Shown here one piece after another: positions 1 to 15,607 of a DNA stretch of 42,342 nucleotides (its first letter is position 1; the number at the start of each line of letters is the position of its first letter). Origin of the DNA: Phycisphaerales bacterium (lineage in GTDB: Bacteria > Planctomycetota > Phycisphaerae > Sedimentisphaerales > Anaerobacaceae); the NCBI GenBank assembly GCA_020343675.1, contig CP070806.1:2081222-2123563 (forward strand). The letters are read 5' to 3'. The notes beneath the pieces were generated by a model, which was given only the letters and a program-made list of their open reading frames with translations, was not told where the DNA came from and did not search any database. The position numbers and the translations under genes were made by a program.

Positions 1-144
1 TATGGGCCCGTCCCATAAGAAAGATTAAAGTTGTCGTCGCGCACCTGTCGATTATTCGCTTTGGGTTGTCCACTATGTGCAGGAAGCAAACACCCACAGT
101 TGAATGCTGCAGAATGACCGATAACGCTTGTAGTCTTGGACGGG

Positions 145-1635
145 ATGAGTTCACGAAGAATTGTTGCAGTAAGCATTGACCCCGACGTACAACAATTGGC
201 TCAGCGATATGGCCGGGAAGTTTTTGGGGCCGATGACCCGCTGGATGCGCTGGATGTCGTCGAAAGAGTCTATCCGAACCTGGTCCTTCTCGATGACCGG
301 TTCAATCGAAGGCAAATCCATGAGTTCTTCAGAAGGGCCGATAACCACTTTGCGGATATTCCTGTAGTGGTCGTGGGAGGCGATGGCAGTGACGCCGAAT
401 CCTCCGCCGAATTCACCCAGATGGGAGCTCGCGATGTTTTGCAGGGAAGACAAGACTACAGCAGGCTGGAGCGCATCATAGAAACGATAGAAGACAACCC
501 AGGGACGGATCATCGCAACTGCAAGCAGATGAACGGGCTCTGGGTGACAGAGGACAGACCGCACGCGGCTCACTTCTTTGCCGAAGACCTGGCCGGTTCC
601 GTATCCATGGTCGGCAGAAGCCCCGCAATTCTCAATGCCCTGAAGATGATTCGCCTTGTGGCCAAGAGCCGGTGCAACCCGATTCTGATCGTCGGAGAAA
701 CAGGCACGGGCAAAGAGCTTGCCGCCAGAGCGGTTCATCTGCTCAGGCATCCAGACGATGAATTCGTGGCGGTTAATTGTGCGGCGCTGACAGCCAGCCT
801 GCTGGAAAGTGAGCTATTCGGCCACGTCAAGGGCGCCTTCACAGGGGCCGACCGCGATAAGACGGGACTCCTGGAATGGGCCGGGTCCGGCACGCTGCTT
901 CTCGATGAGATTTCGGAGATGCCAATGGACTTGCAGGCCAAGCTGCTGCGCGTGCTGCAGGAGAGAACTTTTCGAAAGGTCGGGGGTATCAAGGACCTCG
1001 CCTGTAACGCCACGATTATGGCTTCAAGCAATCGTAATCTCAAGAGCGAGGTCGAGGCAAATCGCTTTCGACGCGACCTGTATTATCGCCTGGACGTAAG
1101 CCCCATTGTTCTTGCTCCGCTTCGGTCACAGGAACGATGCGGCGACGTCAGGCTTCTGGCCGAGTACTTTCTCAAGACTTCGACCATCTGTCCCGAGAAA
1201 CGCAACAGGGTGACGTCCCTGACCCGATTGGCCCTGGAAGCCCTGGAGAAACACGACTGGCCAGGCAATGTTCGCGAACTGCGGAACGTCATCGACCGGG
1301 CTATCCTTCTGGAGACAACGGACAAGATCGGATTGAGCGGAATTGTGATCGACCCCACTCAATGCGCTCAGGCATCCGAGAACCCGGCTGCCGGATTGAT
1401 CAAAGGCTTCTCGCTGGCCAAGGCGGAGCACGAGTTGATTGCCCGAGCGTTGCGGGAAACGGGGTGGCAGAAGACGCGGGCAGCCGCTCTTCTGGGCATA
1501 ACCAGAGCCACACTTTATGCCAAGGTCAAGCAGTACAACATCTCAAAGGATCCGTGCGCTGCTTCAGACCGGGCGGACAAACCCGGCGAGAACGCCGCGG
1601 CTGCTCCCGTTTCGGAGCTTGCATCCACGTACTGA
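145..1635 (+). CDS. Sigma-54-dependent transcriptional activator with receiver-like domain (flagellar regulator candidate)
   Basis: This is an NtrC-type activator of 496 aa that would drive sigma-54 RNA polymerase by ATP hydrolysis. The N-terminal ~115 residues form a CheY-like receiver. It keeps an Asp in the LVLLDD strand (about residue 50), but the usual Thr after strand 4 is Gly and the Lys of strand 5 is missing, so phosphorylation is doubtful. The AAA+ domain (about 150-390) has Walker A GETGTGKE, the sigma-54-contacting loop GAFTGA and Walker B LLLDEI. A Fis-type helix-turn-helix (TRAAALLGITRATLYAKV) lies near the C-terminus. A TTG nine bases upstream (136) is open, but I chose the ATG at 145, preceded by GGACGGG. 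It sits directly upstream of the sigma-54 promoter at 1797 and of flagellar genes, so a flagellar target is likely by context. Confidence 0.9.
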   Translation: MSSRRIVAVSIDPDVQQLAQRYGREVFGADDPLDALDVVERVYPNLVLLDDRFNRRQIHEFFRRADNHFADIPVVVVGGDGSDAESSAEFTQMGARDVLQGRQDYSRLERIIETIEDNPGTDHRNCKQMNGLWVTEDRPHAAHFFAEDLAGSVSMVGRSPAILNALKMIRLVAKSRCNPILIVGETGTGKELAARAVHLLRHPDDEFVAVNCAALTASLLESELFGHVKGAFTGADRDKTGLLEWAGSGTLLLDEISEMPMDLQAKLLRVLQERTFRKVGGIKDLACNATIMASSNRNLKSEVEANRFRRDLYYRLDVSPIVLAPLRSQERCGDVRLLAEYFLKTSTICPEKRNRVTSLTRLALEALEKHDWPGNVRELRNVIDRAILLETTDKIGLSGIVIDPTQCAQASENPAAGLIKGFSLAKAEHELIARALRETGWQKTRAAALLGITRATLYAKVKQYNISKDPCAASDRADKPGENAAAAPVSELASTY

Positions 1636-4455: not shown

Positions 4456-5333
4456 ACAAGGCAACGGCAAACACAACACCAGCAGGGGCAACTCTTCACA
4501 GCCGGCCAGGTCGCGAGGATGGCAGCGAAGCCAGACCCGCCCTGCGGTCATACTGTATCGTGTTCTGTCTTACATTCGTGCCTCTACATCTTCTGACATC
4601 GCTTGTCAGCATCACTGTGGCAAATACGGCCACTGAGCTGCCACAGCCTTTGCCACAGAGCGATCTGGCCGTTCCACCAGACCGAAACCGCCATCTCGGA
4701 CACGAATTGGTGCGAGAGGAAATCCGTGTTGTCGAAGGAACAAAGGCTGAACAGAACAGAAGCAGGCTCAAAGAAATGATCGAACAGATCCGTTCTATCA
4801 GGCTGGAGACGGAGGAGGAACGGACTGTCGCCCCCTCCGTTGTCCCTCGCAAGAGCCCGCCAACCGAACCCAACGAAAGTTCGTTAGACGTGCAGCCCGA
4901 ACCGGACAATCAGAAGAAAGACATCGAGTCCGAGCCGCCCCCTGAACGCGTGAAGAAACAGACGTTAAAGATGCTCCAGAACCTGGCAGAACAACCTGAC
5001 AAACTGTATGCCCCCCTCGAACTGGCCGAAATATTGTTTTCCGGCGGCAACTCACGGGAGGCTGTGAAATTCTACCAAGAGGCGCTGGATCGCTGCGACC
5101 CGAATGACGCCCGTGCATCGAATGACAGAGCGTGGATCTTGTTTCAAATCGGCAACTGCCTGCGACATCATGACCGGCCCGCAACAGCGAAGACATACGG
5201 GCGACTACTCACCGAATATCCGGAATCCCCGTGGACGGTACTGGCAAAAGCCGAGGGCAAGCTTGTCGATTGGTATCTCAGAGACGAACCTCGCAAGTTG
5301 ATTGATGAGCAGAAGCAGGCCAAACGCAAATGA
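4446..5333 (+). CDS. Membrane-anchored TPR-like protein
   Basis: The product is 295 aa from ATG 4446. A second ATG at 4452 forms the classic ATGA overlap with the upstream stop, so translation is coupled and either start is possible. One hydrophobic segment (about 34-58) may be an uncleaved anchor or a late signal peptide. A charged stretch with coiled-coil character follows (about 85-125). The C-terminal ~90 residues resemble tandem TPRs (LAEILFSGG, AVKFYQEALDRC, GRLLTEYP). This is a second TPR protein in the same sigma-54 unit, probably a partner of the larger one. No named family is recognised. Confidence 0.8.
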   Translation: MEMNKATANTTPAGATLHSRPGREDGSEARPALRSYCIVFCLTFVPLHLLTSLVSITVANTATELPQPLPQSDLAVPPDRNRHLGHELVREEIRVVEGTKAEQNRSRLKEMIEQIRSIRLETEEERTVAPSVVPRKSPPTEPNESSLDVQPEPDNQKKDIESEPPPERVKKQTLKMLQNLAEQPDKLYAPLELAEILFSGGNSREAVKFYQEALDRCDPNDARASNDRAWILFQIGNCLRHHDRPATAKTYGRLLTEYPESPWTVLAKAEGKLVDWYLRDEPRKLIDEQKQAKRK

Positions 5334-5355
5334 AGCCGAAACAGGTGATTTGAGT

Positions 5356-6792
5356 ATGCAAAGGAAAGAAGATATTGCCAATGTTCTGATAGCTGACAAT
5401 GATCCCAAGCTGGCTCGCTTGATGCTCGAGATTCTCGCTCGGAAGGGAATCCGCGGACATCTCGTCGGCGACAAGCAGAGTGCTCTTGACTTTGTTAACA
5501 AGGGTCGTTGCGATTTGCTGATTGCCGGCCAAACAATAGACCCACGGCCGGAGGGGGCGAGTAAAACGCAGGACGGTTTTGAGCTTCTTGCCGAAGTTCG
5601 GGCGAACTGGCCGGAGTTGCCCGTGGTGATGATAGCCCGGAATCAAGACGACGGTTTGCAGGACGACGAGCAGGTCGTCGAAACAGCCGTCAGGGCCATC
5701 CGGCAGGGCTGCCGCGATTTCCTGACCAGACCGCCGGATCGAGAGGGAGTAGAACTCTTGTTGGATACCTTCCTGCCCAACCACGATGTCGAAACAGTTG
5801 CCGCCGCTCACGAAGATACGCACTGCCTCTTCAGGATTGTGGGCAGAAGTGCAAATCTGAGCCAAACCGTCAGTTTGGCCAAGAGAATCGCGCCCACTTC
5901 GGCGCCGGTCTTGATCAGCGGTGAAAGCGGAACCGGCAAAGAATTGATGGCCTATCTGATCCATCAGAAGAGCAGAAGAGCCCAGGGTTCATACATTCGC
6001 ATCAATTGTGCCGCGCTGAGCGAGTCGCTTCTTGAGAGCGAGCTCTTTGGGCACGAGAAGGGCGCCTTCACCGGGGCTTATGCTCAGCGCAAGGGCCGGT
6101 TCGAGATGGCCCACGGGGGAACACTGCTGCTGGATGAAATTACCGAGACCCCCACCAGATTTCAGGCCAAACTCCTGCGTGTGCTCGAACAGCAGGATTT
6201 TGAACGCGTCGGCGGAAATGAACGTGTCCGCGTGGACGTGCGGATCATAAGCACCACAAATAAAGACTTGCTGCAAGAAGTGCAGCAGGGCAGGTTCCGT
6301 GCGGACCTCTATTATCGTCTAAGCGGGACGCGATTGGTCCTGAGTCCGTTGAAAGAGCGCAAGGACGACCTGTTGGATCTTGTGTGGTATTTTGTCAACC
6401 TCTATGCCCGCGAGGTTCAGCGTCAGATCACGAAGCTGGACCCGGCGATGATGGACATCTTTTCCAGGTACCACTGGCCCGGGAACGTCCGGCAGTTACG
6501 CAATGTTGTGCGAACGTCGCTGATCCTGGGAGTCGGGCCGACCTTGTCACTGGCCGATGTTTCATGGCTCTTCGACGAATTGCAGCCGCTGGAACAGCAG
6601 GAATGCGGGCTCGATACCCCATCGCTGGGAGGAATGCCCCTGGAGCAGATCGAACGACGGGCGATTTTGGACACGCTCCGCCAAACCGGAGGCAATCGAA
6701 CCAGAGCGGCCAAGGTCCTCGGTATCAGTGACCGGACGCTCCGGGACAAGATCCACCGGTATCGGCGAGAAGGCTGTTTGCAGCCGGCGTGA
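5356..6792 (+). CDS. Sigma-54-dependent activator with phosphorylation-deficient receiver (FlbD/FleQ-like)
   Basis: The product is 478 aa from ATG 5356, preceded by AGGTGA at 5342-5347. A longer frame from 5302 would overlap the upstream gene by 32 bp and is less likely. The receiver-like domain (1-130) has lost its phosphoacceptor: strand 3 reads DLLIAG where DLxxxD is expected, Thr after strand 4 is Ala, and the strand-5 Lys is Arg (FLTRPP). The AAA+ domain is complete: GESGTGKE, GAFTGA, LLLDEI, and arginines in RFRADLYYR. A Fis-type HTH (TRAAKVLGISDRTLRDKI) ends the protein. It sits 36 nt upstream of fliL. Family knowledge (FlbD, FleQ) and context both point to a flagellar master activator that is not controlled by phosphorylation. 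Confidence 0.92.
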   Translation: MQRKEDIANVLIADNDPKLARLMLEILARKGIRGHLVGDKQSALDFVNKGRCDLLIAGQTIDPRPEGASKTQDGFELLAEVRANWPELPVVMIARNQDDGLQDDEQVVETAVRAIRQGCRDFLTRPPDREGVELLLDTFLPNHDVETVAAAHEDTHCLFRIVGRSANLSQTVSLAKRIAPTSAPVLISGESGTGKELMAYLIHQKSRRAQGSYIRINCAALSESLLESELFGHEKGAFTGAYAQRKGRFEMAHGGTLLLDEITETPTRFQAKLLRVLEQQDFERVGGNERVRVDVRIISTTNKDLLQEVQQGRFRADLYYRLSGTRLVLSPLKERKDDLLDLVWYFVNLYAREVQRQITKLDPAMMDIFSRYHWPGNVRQLRNVVRTSLILGVGPTLSLADVSWLFDELQPLEQQECGLDTPSLGGMPLEQIERRAILDTLRQTGGNRTRAAKVLGISDRTLRDKIHRYRREGCLQPA

Positions 6793-8428: not shown

Positions 8429-8809
8429 ATGGCAAAAGCAGCTCAAGCCACAAAAGAAAAATCGGATCAACAACACGACAGCAAGACACAAGCCCAATCC
8501 GTTGAGTTTTCCGAAGCTGTGGAGGCTGAGGTGGCCGGCGCCGGCGGAAGCATTGACATTCTGCTGGATATGACCGTGCCTGTCACGGTCACCATCGGTC
8601 AAACGGACATCCCGGTTCAACGTCTCCTGCGGCTGGGACCCGGCTCGGTGTTGAAGCTCGACAAACCCATCGACCAGCCGGTCGATTTGTACCTCAGAAG
8701 CACCAGGTTTGCCACGGGAAGCGTCGTGGTTGTGAATGGCCGATTCGCCGTCAAGGTAAAACAAATTCTCGGCCTCGGTGATTCCACAGACGCGCCGAAC
8801 GAGGAGTAA
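8429..8809 (+). CDS. fliN: Flagellar motor switch protein FliN
   Basis: The product is 126 aa. A polar, Q/K-rich N-terminal ~40 residues precede a typical SpoA domain: IDILLDMTVPVTVTIG, VQRLLRLGPGSVLKLDKPIDQPVDLYL and VVVNGRFAVKVKQI. FliN forms the lower C-ring together with FliM and binds the export ATPase complex. AAAGGA lies 13 nt upstream of the ATG. The length and the G-R-F-A-V-K motif fit FliN rather than the longer FliY form; no CheC phosphatase domain is present. Confidence 0.93.
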   Translation: MAKAAQATKEKSDQQHDSKTQAQSVEFSEAVEAEVAGAGGSIDILLDMTVPVTVTIGQTDIPVQRLLRLGPGSVLKLDKPIDQPVDLYLRSTRFATGSVVVVNGRFAVKVKQILGLGDSTDAPNEE

Positions 8810-8834
8810 GCTCAGGAAGGAACAAAGAGTCTTG

Positions 8835-10979
8835 ATGGCAGGGACTGCACAATCGAATTCACAAGGATCGCCGGGCTCAAATCCGTCGGGCACCCCTCTG
8901 GGCCCCTATGGCAACACGATTCTGGTTATTGGCATGGTGACAGTTCTTGCCACCCTTTTGATCCGTCTTCCCACGCCGCTGTTGGACATACTTTTGGCAT
9001 GCAGTATATCGCTGGCCATCGCTGTTTTGATTGTCACCCTCTCATCAAAAGAGGCGCTCGATTTATCGACCTTCCCATCGCTGCTTCTGTTCGTGACGCT
9101 GTTTCGGCTGGCCCTGAACGTGGCCTCGACGAGGCTAATCCTTCTGCAGGGCAACGCGGGCAAGATCATTCAGACCTTCGGCGATTTCGTTGCGGGCGGC
9201 AGCTTCGTTGTCGGCGTGGTCATCTTCCTGATCCTCGTGGTCATTCAGTTCATCGTCATCACAAAAGGCGCCGAGCGCATCAGCGAAGTGGCGGCCCGTT
9301 TCACGCTGGATGCCATGCCCGGCAAGCAAATGGCCATCGATGCAGACCTTAATGCCGGACTCATTACCGAGACACAGGCCAACCAGCGCAGGGCAAAAAT
9401 CGTCAAGGAAAGCGAATTCTATGGGGCGATGGACGGTGCCAGTAAATTCATTCGCGGCGATGCCAAGGCCGGATTGATTATCACGGCGGTCAACGTGGTC
9501 GGCGGCATCGCGATGGGGTATTCACGGGGCCTTCCCATAGCCGGCGCCATCAGGACGTACTCTGTTCTCTCTATTGGCGACGGCCTGGTCAGCCAGATAC
9601 CCTCTGTCATCATTGCGGTCAGTTCCGGATTTCTGGTGACCAAGATATCCTCACGCTACAGCGTCGGCCAGGATCTGTCCAAGCAGTTTCTCAAGACCAG
9701 TCAGCCTCTGACGATGGCGGCATTTATCATCGCCTCGATGGCGCTGGTGCCCGGAATGCCCAAAGTACCCTTCCTTGTGCTCGGCGCCGGCGCCGCAGTG
9801 CTTGGACGAGTGATCGCTCAATCGGAGAAGGACCAGAAGCACAAGCAGAGTACCGCTCCACGTGCGAAAGCCCAGAAGCAGCCGGTTGAAGAGCTGCTCG
9901 ATGTGGACAGGGTCTCGGTGCAGGTCGGGGTCCGACTCATCGGAATGGTGGATCCCCGAAAAGACAGCACTATCTTCGATCGCATCGGTGCCCTGCGCAG
10001 AAAATTCGCCCAGCAGATGGGGTTCATCATCCCACTGGTCCGGCTGCGAGACAATATTAACCTCGAACCGACCGCGTATGAGATCAGGATCGCCGAACTG
10101 CCGATTGCCAAAGGCCGATTGGAGCCTGAGATGTTCCTTGCCATGGATCCTGGGACGGTGCAGACCAGGGTCGAGGGCATCGCGACAACCGAACCGGTCT
10201 ATGGGTTGCCCGCTCTGTGGGTCACACCGGCCAACAAGGAAAAAGCCGAATTGAACGGCTACACGGTCATCGATCCTGAATCCGTCTTCATTACGCATCT
10301 TTCTGAAGCGCTTCGAAGGCATGCGGACGACCTGTTGACTCGAGAAGATGTGCAGTTGCTTATTGACAGACTCCGCAAAACCCAGCCATCGCTGGTCGGT
10401 GAGGTCGTCGGGCCCGACCGAGACGTATCCATCGGGCTGCTTCAACGCGTGCTGAAGAACCTCATCGGAGACGACATACCGATTCGCGAGCTGACCGCCA
10501 TTCTTGAATCGCTCGGAGAAAACGCCTCGAAAACCAAGAACGCCGCCGTGTTGACCGAGATGGTTCGCAAACGTCTGGCCCGCACCATTACCGAACTGTA
10601 CAAAACCGATGACGGCCGCATCATGGCCATCACGCTGGAGCCGCCCCTCGAGCACCAGATGGCCTCCACCTTGCAGCAGGAAGCGGATGCCATAAACCTG
10701 GCTCTATCGACGGATGCTGCAATGGAGGTCAGCAGACAGATCGCCCGTGCGTGGAAAGCAGTGATGGACAAAGGGACCGAAAAAGTGGTTTTGCTGTGTG
10801 ATTCGAGGCTGCGCTCGCCGCTGGCGGGGATGCTGTCGCGAACCGTACCGCTGCTGCCGGTGGTCGCCTACGACGAAATCGTGCTCGGAACTGACGTCGA
10901 ACCCCTGCAGACCGTATCTCTGACGAATTCCGAATCGACAACACAGAATGAACACGAACTTCTTGGTGTTTCAACGTAA
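8835..10979 (+). CDS. flhA: Flagellar export gate protein FlhA
   Basis: The product is 714 aa. ATG 8835 is chosen because AAAGAG (8824-8829) and AGGAAGGAA precede it; the frame is open back to 8778, inside fliN. The N-terminal half has about eight transmembrane helices and the FlhA hallmarks: SLAIAVLIV, FPSLLLFVTLFRLALNVASTR split over the second helix pair, GDFVAGG, FIVITKGAERISEVAARF and DAMPGKQMAIDADLNAG. The C-terminal half is the cytoplasmic docking domain. FlhA is the core of the type III flagellar export gate. Partners FlhB, FliP, FliQ and FliR are not in this window. Confidence 0.97.
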   Translation: MAGTAQSNSQGSPGSNPSGTPLGPYGNTILVIGMVTVLATLLIRLPTPLLDILLACSISLAIAVLIVTLSSKEALDLSTFPSLLLFVTLFRLALNVASTRLILLQGNAGKIIQTFGDFVAGGSFVVGVVIFLILVVIQFIVITKGAERISEVAARFTLDAMPGKQMAIDADLNAGLITETQANQRRAKIVKESEFYGAMDGASKFIRGDAKAGLIITAVNVVGGIAMGYSRGLPIAGAIRTYSVLSIGDGLVSQIPSVIIAVSSGFLVTKISSRYSVGQDLSKQFLKTSQPLTMAAFIIASMALVPGMPKVPFLVLGAGAAVLGRVIAQSEKDQKHKQSTAPRAKAQKQPVEELLDVDRVSVQVGVRLIGMVDPRKDSTIFDRIGALRRKFAQQMGFIIPLVRLRDNINLEPTAYEIRIAELPIAKGRLEPEMFLAMDPGTVQTRVEGIATTEPVYGLPALWVTPANKEKAELNGYTVIDPESVFITHLSEALRRHADDLLTREDVQLLIDRLRKTQPSLVGEVVGPDRDVSIGLLQRVLKNLIGDDIPIRELTAILESLGENASKTKNAAVLTEMVRKRLARTITELYKTDDGRIMAITLEPPLEHQMASTLQQEADAINLALSTDAAMEVSRQIARAWKAVMDKGTEKVVLLCDSRLRSPLAGMLSRTVPLLPVVAYDEIVLGTDVEPLQTVSLTNSESTTQNEHELLGVST

Positions 10980-11041
10980 GACACGGGTCGAGTGAATGGC
11001 AGAGACAATAGACCCAAGACACGACGAAGAATGAGGTGATT

Positions 11042-11317
11042 ATGCCGTTGCACGTTCGCTCAATCGCAATCAACATTGCTGTGATATGTTTTTTCGTCCT
11101 GAGCCTTGTTGGCTGGGTCAGCGGCCTTTCGCCGTCCGTCTGCTGCAAGAGGGCGATGATTGGGGCAGTGCTCGCGTATATCGCAGGAACCTGGGCGACC
11201 AGAGCGATCAATGCCGTGCTGATTCATGCCATGATCACAAACCAGATGAGTCAAAAGACAAATTCCGGTCCTGCGTCGAACCGCAAAATTAGCTTACAAG
11301 GACAACCGCCGCGGTGA
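11042..11317 (+). CDS. Small two-helix membrane protein between flhA and fliA
   Basis: The product is 91 aa. The start is ATG 11042 with GAGGTGAT directly upstream (11034-11041). Two hydrophobic helices are visible (about 8-28 and 37-58), with a CC pair between them and a polar, basic tail. Its stop codon overlaps the fliA GTG (GTGA, 11314-11317), so the two are translationally coupled. Many bacteria carry flhF and flhG at this position; this short protein resembles neither. Function unknown; a flagellar role is inferred only from operon position. Confidence 0.75.
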   Translation: MPLHVRSIAINIAVICFFVLSLVGWVSGLSPSVCCKRAMIGAVLAYIAGTWATRAINAVLIHAMITNQMSQKTNSGPASNRKISLQGQPPR

Positions 11318-12126
11318 TAGACACTAAGAACATCTGCGAAGAGCCGCTGACACGAGGGAGCCAAAAGCACCTGAGCAGTGTCGCCTTGCGCGCCTACTCG
11401 GGAGAGAAAAAGTCTGTCAAGAGTGATGCGCAGAATGAGCGGATCGCCGAGTTTCTGCCGATGGTTCGCAAGATTGCCGGGCGGGTGATAACGTACCTGA
11501 AACCTCCGCTGTCGTTCGAAGATATGGTCTCGGCCGGAACGGTCGGGCTGGTTCGAGCGGCTCGCGATTTCGACCCGTCTCACCAGGCCGAGTTCAAGAC
11601 CTATGCGTATATCAGGATCAAAGGAGCCATTCTCGACGAGTTGAGGGGCTGGTCCTTTGTGCCCGCAAATCTGAGCAAACGAATTCGCGATGCCCAGCAG
11701 CTCAGCCGGAAGATCACCGAGCAAAGAGGCACCGCACCTGGGAACACCGAATTGGCCGAGAAGCTCGGAATCAGCATCGAGGAGCTTTACGAGATATTCG
11801 ACAATGCGCGAGCCCAGTATTTCCTGTCACTCGATGGTTTCGGGGAGGGCTCGCCGGCGCTGGGCAATTTGCTGGCCGCAGACGATGCGAGCGACCCCGA
11901 CCGGAACATTGAACGTGCCGAACTGATAGAAAAGCTGACCGAGGCCATTCAGGGCCTCTCGGCAAGACAGCGCCAAGTTGTCCTGCTCTACTACCGTCAG
12001 CAGCTCACGATGAAACAGGTCGCCGAGATCCTGGAGATTACCGAGTCGCGCGTCAGCCAACTGCACGCGAGCGCCTTATTCAACTTGTCCGTAAGATTGA
12101 GGCAGTGGAAAGATGGCAGATTATGA
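11314..12126 (+). CDS. fliA: RNA polymerase sigma factor for flagellar operon (sigma-28, FliA)
   Basis: The product is 270 aa from GTG 11314, which overlaps the upstream stop. After a ~40-residue extension, sigma region 2 is seen at about 46-120 (LPMVRKIAGRV, SFEDMVSAGTVGLVRAA, FKTYAYIRIKGAILDELR). Region 3 is at about 125-190, and region 4 at about 215-262 (LSARQRQVVLLYY, MKQVAEILEITESRVSQLH). This is the FliA/WhiG/SigD architecture and lacks region 1.1. FliA directs late flagellar and chemotaxis genes. Placement behind flhA in a sigma-54-driven unit, with an anti-sigma candidate 2 kb downstream, supports the flagellar assignment. Confidence 0.95.
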   Translation: MIDTKNICEEPLTRGSQKHLSSVALRAYSGEKKSVKSDAQNERIAEFLPMVRKIAGRVITYLKPPLSFEDMVSAGTVGLVRAARDFDPSHQAEFKTYAYIRIKGAILDELRGWSFVPANLSKRIRDAQQLSRKITEQRGTAPGNTELAEKLGISIEELYEIFDNARAQYFLSLDGFGEGSPALGNLLAADDASDPDRNIERAELIEKLTEAIQGLSARQRQVVLLYYRQQLTMKQVAEILEITESRVSQLHASALFNLSVRLRQWKDGRL

Positions 12127-13293: not shown

Positions 13294-14004
13294 ATGAACA
13301 TTCAGGGAACGCACCTTTCGTCGTTGTGTACGCATCGCTCATCGATCGTCATCCGTCACTGCCGACAACGCCCGAGAATCGCGGCACGCGCTTCGAGGAG
13401 CATCTTGCTGCTGCTGGCGGCAGCCTTCTTCCCGGGCTGCCATACGGCCCAGCCGCCGGCGCCTCAGGCGGCCTATTACTACCTGAATCCGAGCAAGACA
13501 CTGACCGCCGTCGGACGGGTGGCGATTGTGGAACTGGAGAACGATTCGAGCTATCCGCAGGTCTCAACGGACGTGACGACCGCGCTTTTCCAGGCGTTGC
13601 AGAAGAAGCAGGTTTTCGGCTTGACTGTCATACGCCGGAACGATCCCTCCTGGCGCAGCCTTCAGCTGGACGCAAGCTCGACATACAGTCTCGACGAGAT
13701 GCCGGCCATCCGCGAGAGATTGAAATGCGACGGATTGCTGCTCGGTACAATCACCGAATTCAGGCCTTATCCTCACATGGCCGTCGGACTGCGATTGAAG
13801 CTGCTGGACCTCAGGGACGGCCAGCTTCTCTGGGCCCTTGAGCAGGTCTGGGACAGTGCCGACAGCACCACTGAGAAACGGATAAAGGAGTACTTCAAAT
13901 CCGAGAAACGCGACGGGTTTGCACCGCTGCACGAGCAGCTGGCAACGGTCAGTCCGCTTGAATTCATCAAATTCATCAGCTATGAGGTTGCCGGAACGCT
14001 GTAG
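13294..14004 (+). CDS. Putative lipoprotein with CsgG/FlgO-like fold
   Basis: The product is 236 aa. The N-terminus is long and basic before a hydrophobic core ending FFPGC (Cys49), which suggests a lipoprotein; the true start could be further in, since no clear ribosome binding site precedes ATG 13294. The rest reads like an alpha/beta domain of the CsgG/TolB-N/FlgO type: GRVAIVELENDSSYPQVSTD, then TALFQALQKKQVFGLTVI, CDGLLLGTITEFRPY and LRLKLLDLRDGQLLWA. That similarity is by pattern only. Outer-membrane lipoproteins of this fold assist flagella in some bacteria, so a flagellar role is plausible here. Confidence 0.72.
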   Translation: MNIQGTHLSSLCTHRSSIVIRHCRQRPRIAARASRSILLLLAAAFFPGCHTAQPPAPQAAYYYLNPSKTLTAVGRVAIVELENDSSYPQVSTDVTTALFQALQKKQVFGLTVIRRNDPSWRSLQLDASSTYSLDEMPAIRERLKCDGLLLGTITEFRPYPHMAVGLRLKLLDLRDGQLLWALEQVWDSADSTTEKRIKEYFKSEKRDGFAPLHEQLATVSPLEFIKFISYEVAGTL

Positions 14005-14103
14005 CGGGAGTTCAAAATGAATACGACGGTCTTCGGCACGGCAGGAACAGGGTATTCGGCCCTGAGATTGAGGAAAAAAGAACGACAAACTGGCGAAAAA
14101 TGC

Positions 14104-14130
14104 TAAAGTTTTATCAGGAACCCACGAAAA
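14104..14130 (+). promoter_or_regulatory. Sigma-28 (FliA) type promoter
   Basis: TAAAGTTT at 14104-14111 is an exact match to the sigma-28 -35 element. Eleven bases later comes CACGAAAA (14123-14130), matching 5 of 8 positions of GCCGATAA, including the CGA core. It lies about 40 nt upstream of the FlgM-like gene, matching the known control of flgM by FliA. Confidence 0.65.
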
Positions 14131-14169
14131 GAAGCGCAGACTTCAAGATTCTGAGAACGGCCTATACAA

Positions 14170-14436
14170 ATGGTAGATAAAATAGAGAACAACCCGCCCC
14201 TGATTGAAACAAGCCCACCGTCCGGGCAAGCGAATCAGCCGCGGGCGTTGCCCAAAAGCGGGGATGACGTGTCCATACAGGTCGATTATGCTTCCCTGAT
14301 TGAAGAAGCCATGCAGCCGCCGGACGACGATGCGCTGCGCGTCGCCGAAGGGCGAGACCTGCTGCTCTCAGGCGAGCTTGAAAGCCCCCAAAGCATCCGA
14401 GAAACAGCAGAGATCCTCGTGAACCGTGGCGCATGA
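14170..14436 (+). CDS. FlgM-like anti-sigma-28 factor candidate
   Basis: The product is 88 aa with no signal peptide. The first ~40 residues are polar and look disordered. The C-terminal half matches the FlgM layout: DVSIQVDYASLIEEA, then PDDDALRVAEGRDLLLSG, then QSIRETAEILVNRGA. In FlgM the equivalents are a short strand/helix, a helix ending in an A/I-x-x-G turn, and a last helix that binds sigma-28. Size, pattern, a sigma-28-type promoter upstream and fliA 2 kb away all agree. In known systems FlgM holds FliA until it is exported through the finished hook-basal body. Confidence 0.68.
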   Translation: MVDKIENNPPLIETSPPSGQANQPRALPKSGDDVSIQVDYASLIEEAMQPPDDDALRVAEGRDLLLSGELESPQSIRETAEILVNRGA

Positions 14437-14518
14437 ACCCCTGAAAAACATCAAGAGAGGCGTTATGTGATTCCGGCTAAGGACGGCCGGACTATGAGCC
14501 AAATGGATTTCGTAAACT

Positions 14519-14561
14519 CGGCGAGGAAGACAAACTTGCCCTTTCCTCGCCGTTTTTCTTT
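14519..14561 (+). terminator. Intrinsic terminator ending the flagellar block
   Basis: CGGCGAGGAA (14519-14528) pairs perfectly with TTCCTCGCCG (14543-14552), with a 14-nt loop, followed by TTTTTCTTT. It sits 80 nt after the FlgM-like gene. Confidence 0.92.
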
Positions 14562-15279
14562 GCAATTCAGACGCAGAGATCAAGCGTCCGCGCTGCTGAA
14601 GTCTCGTCGGGGCATGTTCGTGTGATGACCATGCGGCGGGTGTAGGTGGCTGAACCGGCTATGAAGGATTTATGAAGGCCCGGCATCTCGTTCGAATGCA
14701 GACCTTCGGCGGCTCTGTAAAGAGGAACCGACCGGATAACCTTGCATGAAATTCGCTTTCTCATTCACCCACCCCAATATTATCTATCTTACCACATTCA
14801 CGCCTCCAGGTCAAGCAAAATCCCGGCCACTAAGCCACAAAGAACCTCAAACACTCACGTCATTGCAAGGCCCGACGGGCCGTGGCAATCTCTTGCGGCA
14901 CAGGCAAATAGCCGCACTTGCGTTTGAAATTGGCTTTGTCTTTTCAAAATGCTCATCAAGAGAATGCGTACGTATCACAAAAACATGTTGACCGGCTCCG
15001 GTTCATAGGAGGGCACAGACGCCGTCCTGAATTAGCCGAAGCCCAGAGCCTGCCGAAAGGGTAGTTGAGGCAGATCACCGAGAATGCTGTGTGAGATACG
15101 ACAGAGCCTCGGTGAAAGGCAGGAACAAGTACCCTTCCCCCTGATTTCTGTATGGTGCACTCCAGAAAATCCCATCAGGATTGAAGAATCTGTCTGTTCC
15201 GTGCTCAAAGGCCCGAAATCCCGCGAAAAAGGGTGTTTGCCACACAGACGCTTGCCAGTGTACGGACCCGAGGTTTTGC
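14562..15279. other. Non-coding stretch between the flagellar block and the LamG gene
   Basis: About 0.7 kb without a credible gene. Short frames here lack ribosome binding sites and recognisable protein character. The only structured element I can point to is the REP-like palindrome at 14859-14890. Confidence 0.6.
14859..14890. repeat. REP-like palindromic element
   Basis: The unit has ATTGC at one end and GCAAT at the other, around a GGCCCG / CGGGCC core. It resembles a short palindrome (CATTGC-GAGG...GCAATC type) scattered through many bacterial genomes. Only this copy is in the window. Confidence 0.5.
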
Positions 15280-15308
15280 TTGACTTGGGGTGGCGAATGT
15301 GGTACAAA
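15280..15308 (+). promoter_or_regulatory. Sigma-70-like promoter for the LamG gene
   Basis: TTGACT (15280-15285), a 17-bp spacer and TACAAA (15303-15308). Transcription would begin near 15315, leaving a ~290-nt leader before ATG 15608. No other good promoter is visible closer to the gene. Confidence 0.5.
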
Positions 15309-15310
15309 TA

Positions 15311-15607
15311 CAAATAGTAGGTAAGGTTGGTGGATTTTTGACCTTGCAGCCTCATGCAGGCTTGAATCCCCTCGGGACTTTGCCGATACAGCGTAGAGTA
15401 GAGCAGTAGCGACAAGACCGCCGGAGCCGTATGCTTTGGAGACAAGGGTTTTCTGCCAAAGTCGGAATCAGTGAGTTCTTGGCATGTTGAAGGAAGGAGG
15501 TCGTTTCACATCGCAAGCGTTCTCCCGGACAGATATTGCCAGGATGCAATGCAGGCAAGGCTTCTTGCCGGTCGTTTCAATTCAACTTCTTTCTAAGGAG
15601 GTCTGTT
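15311..15607 (+). other. Long 5' leader of the LamG gene
   Basis: No credible ORF is present. A 6-bp hairpin, GGCAAG / CTTGCC (15554-15569, GCTT loop), lies 25 nt before the strong AAGGAGGT ribosome binding site at 15595-15602. I do not recognise a riboswitch class in it. Confidence 0.35.

Follow-up and report, generated by a model that had tools for sequence, protein, structure and literature searches.

In the classical flagellar loop, FliA (sigma28) transcribes flgM, FlgM holds FliA and export of FlgM frees FliA; the available text of PMC10578931 presents this scheme as established for FlgM. In Bacillus subtilis, flagellin translation is blocked by CsrA, according to the available text of a review of CsrA ligands (PMC7652899). 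The same text states that most selected hairpins combine four or fewer contiguous pairs with six-base loops, and that RsmE binds an ANGGAN hexaloop. Small RNAs that derive from UTRs and depend on sigma28 are known in E. coli (UhpU, MotR, FliX and FlgO; PMC10578931). In the available main text of that paper, CsrA is not named.

The window analysed here is a stretch of 42,342 nucleotides from a Phycisphaerales bacterium whose genome forms one contig of 5.06 Mb. An ORF of this window very probably encodes a divergent FlgM, a planctomycete anti-sigma28 factor that would be transcribed by FliA, would bind FliA and would be released by export, in a feedback loop. This identity, already proposed in a preliminary description, gains support from profile homology at the level of the family, from an occurrence bound to that of FlhA, from synteny with fliA and from a conserved sigma28-type promoter. 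The corresponding features are as follows.

8778-10979, plus strand: FlhA, near the start of a conserved flhA-fliA-flgM string (PF00771, 3.2e-238; synteny)
11314-12126, plus strand: FliA (sigma28), the presumed partner (TIGR02479, 200.5 bits, above cut-off)
13294-14004, plus strand: conserved lipoprotein-like gene, the immediate 5' neighbour of the flgM gene (28 of 29 loci)
14104-14130, plus strand: sigma28-type promoter TAAAGTTT-N11-CACGAAAA (sequence; motif kept in relatives)
14170-14436, plus strand: candidate divergent flgM gene, 88 aa, ATG start (ORF call; hhalign to canonical FlgM)

Used as a one-protein query, the window protein finds homologues in 34 of 60 genomes. A profile search gives matches in 38 of the 60. 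The match in G059 is a canonical FlgM ORF, so that the family is present in 37 genomes; many of the 60 are drafts and the counts ignore kinship. Homologues are about 85-95 residues long and share three conserved parts, an N-terminal MIEKI, a central DASLQVxYASLIEKA and a C-terminal ARELLLSGxLxSPENIRxAAENIxxFGI. The named relatives are mostly MAGs of Phycisphaerae and other Planctomycetota; one record (L084) bears the title Candidatus Kuenenia, and two others come from uncultured bacteria. In an AlphaFold2 model of low confidence (pLDDT 60, pTM 0.23), the window protein is a coil from residue 1 to 39 followed by helices 40-47, 53-67 and 73-86, a layout like the disordered N-terminus and helical C-terminus that the preliminary description had proposed for it.

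It had been suggested beforehand that a standard search could miss a FlgM so short and divergent. This was borne out, as neither Pfam nor NCBIfam gives a single match for the window protein; the search with the Pfam FlgM family, proposed at the same time as a check, came back empty. Unlike FlgM, the family lies under both curated cut-offs (25 bits for PF04316 and 40.75 bits for TIGR03824), which no member passes. The best E-values are 0.036 for PF04316, matched by 1 of 30 members, and 0.037 for TIGR03824, matched by 4 of 30. Among eight more distant members none passes PF04316, one of them reaching E 0.083. Run against the PDB, the profile of the family matches a designed binder alone (E 1.4) and none of the FlgM chains. 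The failure at the curated FlgM cut-offs is a limit of detection and not a property of the protein.

Because single members reach the FlgM models weakly, canonical FlgM sequences from the same phylum were gathered for a comparison of profiles, with 30 family sequences in set A1 and 35 canonical planctomycete FlgM in set A4. The A4 profile retrieves the PDB FlgM chains 9wsf_B (7e-13) and 1rp3_B (4e-9), and the A4 set is therefore FlgM. Alignment of A1 with A4 by hhalign gives a probability of 95.8% and a score of 48.2 over 47 ungapped columns. The controls score lower, with maxima of 18.9 for 200 column shuffles of A1 and 21.4 for 200 of A4, a score of 10.4 for reversed A4, and at most 17.9 when nine further families from these loci are compared with A4. 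The family HMM also matches the canonical FlgM ORF of G059 (E 0.005). When the ungapped register is extended upstream, Asp33 (D33) of the window protein aligns with the D that is invariant in canonical FlgM; at this position, member L246 has DKVELSS, near the canonical DxVEIS. From these alignments we take the relationship between the family and canonical FlgM as a true, distant homology. The family thus resembles FlgM (PF04316, TIGR03824; structures 1rp3/1sc5 and 9wsf) in its homologous C-terminal half and in its length. It differs from FlgM in that the hallmarks VEIS and the tyrosine after G (GxY) are mostly absent, being replaced by about DxSLQVDYASLI and SGxLESPENI.

FlhA was found in 45 of the 60 genomes, in G014 as a fragment only. 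The family is present in 37 of these 45 genomes versus none of the 15 without FlhA (Fisher p 9e-9, uncorrected for kinship). The eight genomes having FlhA and lacking the family are six of family f5, G007 and G014; all six f5 genomes contain FlhA and canonical FlgM, and the divergent family is absent from them. The flhA and fliA genes lie upstream of the family gene in 26 of 29 named loci. As with FlgM, the gene adjoins fliA, is preceded by a sigma28-type promoter and occurs only in genomes with FlhA; unlike FlgM, it ends the conserved flhA-fliA string. In a phmmer search, FliA of the window matches 1rp3_A (1e-32) and the FliA chain 9wsf_A (1.8e-35). A second copy of the family gene stands directly before flagellin in G045, G049 and G053.

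Other genes of the neighbourhood deserve mention. A small membrane ORF between flhA and fliA (window 11036-11317), whose second hydrophobic stretch contains an arginine, is a candidate FlgV, a family described in the available text of PMC11607428. Two genes for sigma54-type activators (window 136-1635 and 5302-6792) are found near the flagellar genes, and their proximity suggests that the early flagellar genes are under sigma54 control.

The preliminary description had reported a perfect -35 and a reasonable -10 about 40 nt upstream of the ORF. Both elements are indeed present as TAAAGTTT-N11-CACGAAAA, with the -10 at 14123-14130 after the N11 spacer and its end 39 nt before the ATG. TAAAGTTT occurs once in the window (14104-14111; 0.35 expected). 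With 3 mismatches, this promoter is also the sole match of the window to TAAAGTTT-N11-GCCGATAA when up to 3 mismatches are allowed. Since 0.11 matches are expected and 10 of 100 shuffles reach one, the window taken alone gives modest support for the promoter. The comparison with relatives used 61 non-identical homologous upstream regions, after 12 identical regions and L247 (same gene as L033) had been dropped. Of these, 55 contain T[ACT]A[AG]G-N16-CGA, against a Markov mean of 1.8 and a largest value of 6/61; the final promoter patterns were written after viewing the sequences and the chance estimates are those of post-hoc patterns. This conservation supports the predicted sigma28-dependent transcription of the family gene. 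In 22 regions with dissimilar spacers, conservation extends to positions left unfixed by the pattern (GTT following TAAA, and a final AA) but not to the spacer. The motif is missing from the six other regions, two of which, L007 and L081, are those of some of the window protein's nearest relatives. The 3' UTRs of these two also look different, and L081 is without a match to the RNA covariance model described below.

Flagellin genes of the same lineage follow the same motif grammar, at 6 of 13 loci with N16 and, by eye, at L098 and L102 with N17; of the 13, L106 is not a typical-looking flagellin and L104 gave no start. Upstream of canonical FlgM, the motif is found in 0 of 6 cases in f5 (5 of 6 if the spacing is relaxed) and in 4 of 29 elsewhere, and upstream of a second FlgM-like type (L001 type) in 0 of 24. 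Thus, the fixed N16 form is a mark of the divergent family. Genome-wide, TAAAG..CGA sites number 35 in the genome of the window versus 55 in the backward control and are not clearly enriched across 31 genomes, so that such sites define no regulon. For the stricter THAAGT-N15-CGANAA, 7 sites were counted over 5.06 Mb against 9 in the control; the 7 include those of the divergent flgM gene and of flagellin.

The L001 type raises the question of which protein is the FlgM of this genome. Its representative here is a 93-residue ORF (G000:C1:25629-25727; L001:1450-1731, minus strand) that outscores the window protein with PF04316 (E 0.0016), and the type matches canonical FlgM strongly in hhalign (99.15%, score 102). 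The L001 ORF could therefore be the real FlgM, and the window protein another late flagellar protein such as a secretion chaperone. We consider this very unlikely. PF04316 matches (E up to 0.023) occur in 12 of the 15 genomes without FlhA, and the five that were inspected are all of the L001 type, which indicates that this type is not tied to flagella. Its upstream regions lack the sigma28-type promoter, as stated above, and the ORF lies beside ispE- and PilO-like genes (named by eye). The window family and the L001 type do not match each other (hhalign score 13.6, noise). As an observation in its own right, the L001 type appears to be a FlgM domain outside flagella.

Downstream of the candidate flgM gene, relatives share a conserved RNA with the window. 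Its parts are listed here.

14467-14557, plus strand: conserved 3' UTR RNA with hairpin, second GGA site and terminator (covariance model R1, 68.1 bits for a sequence that belonged to the training set; covariation)
14473-14490, plus strand: hairpin with an AAGGAC (ANGGAN) hexaloop, similar to a CsrA site (alignment, covariation)
14502-14507, plus strand: second GGA site, AATGGA (all 21 aligned sequences have A-N-GGA)
14519-14557, plus strand: terminator CGGCGAGGAAG...CTTTCCTCGCCG-TTTTT (fold -18.1 kcal/mol), not listed by a simple terminator scan for loops of up to 8 nt

The stem that closes the loop is paired in 100% of cells over the 21 aligned sequences, and 2 of the 4 pairs in this stem show two-sided changes. 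For the whole RNA structure, two-sided changes are seen at 8 of 15 pairs versus 2.8 in shuffles, and 0 of 500 shuffles reached as high a value. The loop reads A-N-GGA-N in 20 of the 21 sequences, and a third GGA is found in 17, inside the terminator stem. Sequence conservation extends over long stretches, GGATTTATAAACTCGGCGAGG among them. Applied to the 60 genomes, the covariance model gives 22 strong matches in 21 genomes (E <= 1.8e-5, the E-values being rough after a shortened calibration), all located 9-123 nt behind a family gene and on the same strand; most are members of the training set or their close kin. Twenty of the matches are at 6.4e-10 or better. The tail of the set consists of G058 (3.5e-6) and G054 (1.8e-5), both AT-rich, whose equivalents L086 and L085 are without a clear ANGGAN hairpin. 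Seventeen weaker matches (7e-5 to 0.0084) were left uncounted. The matches in G057 and L094 belong neither to the training set nor to its close kin; there, the loop is present and the stem changed. Rfam returned no family at the gathering cut-off in the window and, with a relaxed threshold over 13900-15600, weak matches far below the cut-offs. CsrA is encoded in 53 of the 60 genomes, including that of the window (E 7.4e-24), and is about 0.9 kb from the family gene in G045, G049 and G053.

With its short ANGGAN hairpin and further A-N-GGA, the 3' UTR RNA is like the CsrA/RsmE sites of CsrB, RsmZ and the hag leader, as these are described in the available text of PMC7652899. Unlike these sites, it is located in the 3' UTR of a putative anti-sigma gene and has no Rfam match at gathering; unlike CsrB, it has two or three sites and not many. 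As a UTR RNA with predicted sigma28 control it would also be comparable to UhpU, MotR, FliX and FlgO of E. coli, from which it differs by following flgM and by its CsrA-type loop. From these features, we infer that the hairpin may bind CsrA and that the flgM transcript may carry or release a CsrA-binding RNA.

Other interpretations of this RNA must be weighed. The element closes with a strong stem followed by a T run and its CsrA site is putative, so it might simply be a rho-independent terminator to which an extra hairpin has been added, the GGA loops being unrelated to CsrA. A terminator can do without the first hairpin and without the second A-N-GGA, yet the latter is kept in every aligned sequence; the stem pairs compensate, and the loop retains A-N-GGA-N, in which both N vary freely. 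We regard this interpretation as rather doubtful. The long sequence-conserved stretches, and the precedent of the E. coli UTR-derived RNAs (available text of PMC10578931), could instead point to an RNA processed out of the flgM mRNA that acts as a small RNA by base pairing or senses a ligand. The loop code nevertheless matches the ANGGAN form of RsmE/CsrA (available text of PMC7652899), and we find a function of this kind, in place of a CsrA site, unlikely.

A further promoter is found in part of the relatives. TA[AG]AG-N17-CGA occurs on the other strand in 28 of the 61 upstream regions (Markov mean 0.3, largest 3). This sigma28-like promoter is placed about 30 nt before the forward -35 and faces away from flgM, for example in L023, L027 and L030. 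Its best form is TAAAGTTT-N12-GCCGATAA (L023), and a version with N16 also precedes flagellin-linked copies (L234, L237, L247). The upstream region of the window gene contains no opposed promoter. The putative product of the opposed promoter would be antisense to the preceding gene.

Taking the window gene as a divergent flgM whose 3' UTR contains a CsrA site, a mechanism can be proposed. The FliA holoenzyme would transcribe flgM from the promoter at 14104-14130, and the C-terminal helices of the divergent FlgM would bind FliA, giving a negative feedback loop. Exit of FlgM through the flagellar export machine would then release FliA. For the window protein, binding to FliA and export are inferred from its relationship with FlgM. 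Through the 3' UTR hairpin the flgM transcript would also bind CsrA, which would link sigma28 activity to CsrA. Since CsrA blocks flagellin translation in B. subtilis (available text of PMC7652899), a CsrA-binding RNA made together with the late genes could relieve such a block, and the flgM 3' UTR RNA may have this effect.

In its broadest form, the proposal makes flgM a two-part regulator. One sigma28 transcript would yield both an anti-sigma factor and a dedicated CsrA-binding 3' UTR RNA, so that hook completion would reset sigma28, by FlgM export, together with the control that CsrA exerts over flagellin translation. In some members of the lineage, this site would also start a sigma28 transcript in the opposite direction, antisense to the early genes that come before it. 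We put this forward tentatively, as a possibility somewhat short of probable. With a divergent FlgM, the lineage would gain a flagellar checkpoint protein missed by annotation, and FlgM would be seen to retain its promoter even where its sequence has diverged below the family cut-offs. Promoter, flgM and ANGGAN hairpin, as one unit, would physically join the sigma28/FlgM and CsrA layers of control in one transcript. We could not find a description of this unit in listings of the open-access literature on FlgM or CsrA in Planctomycetes, on FliA in Phycisphaerae, or on CsrA with FlgM.

Finally, in several of the flagellin leaders of L095-L105 (up to about 150 nt upstream), inverted repeats are conserved, for instance GTGC..GCAC and GGCC..GGCC. 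These repeats sit between the sigma28-like promoter and AAGGAG and are possibly a site of translational control.
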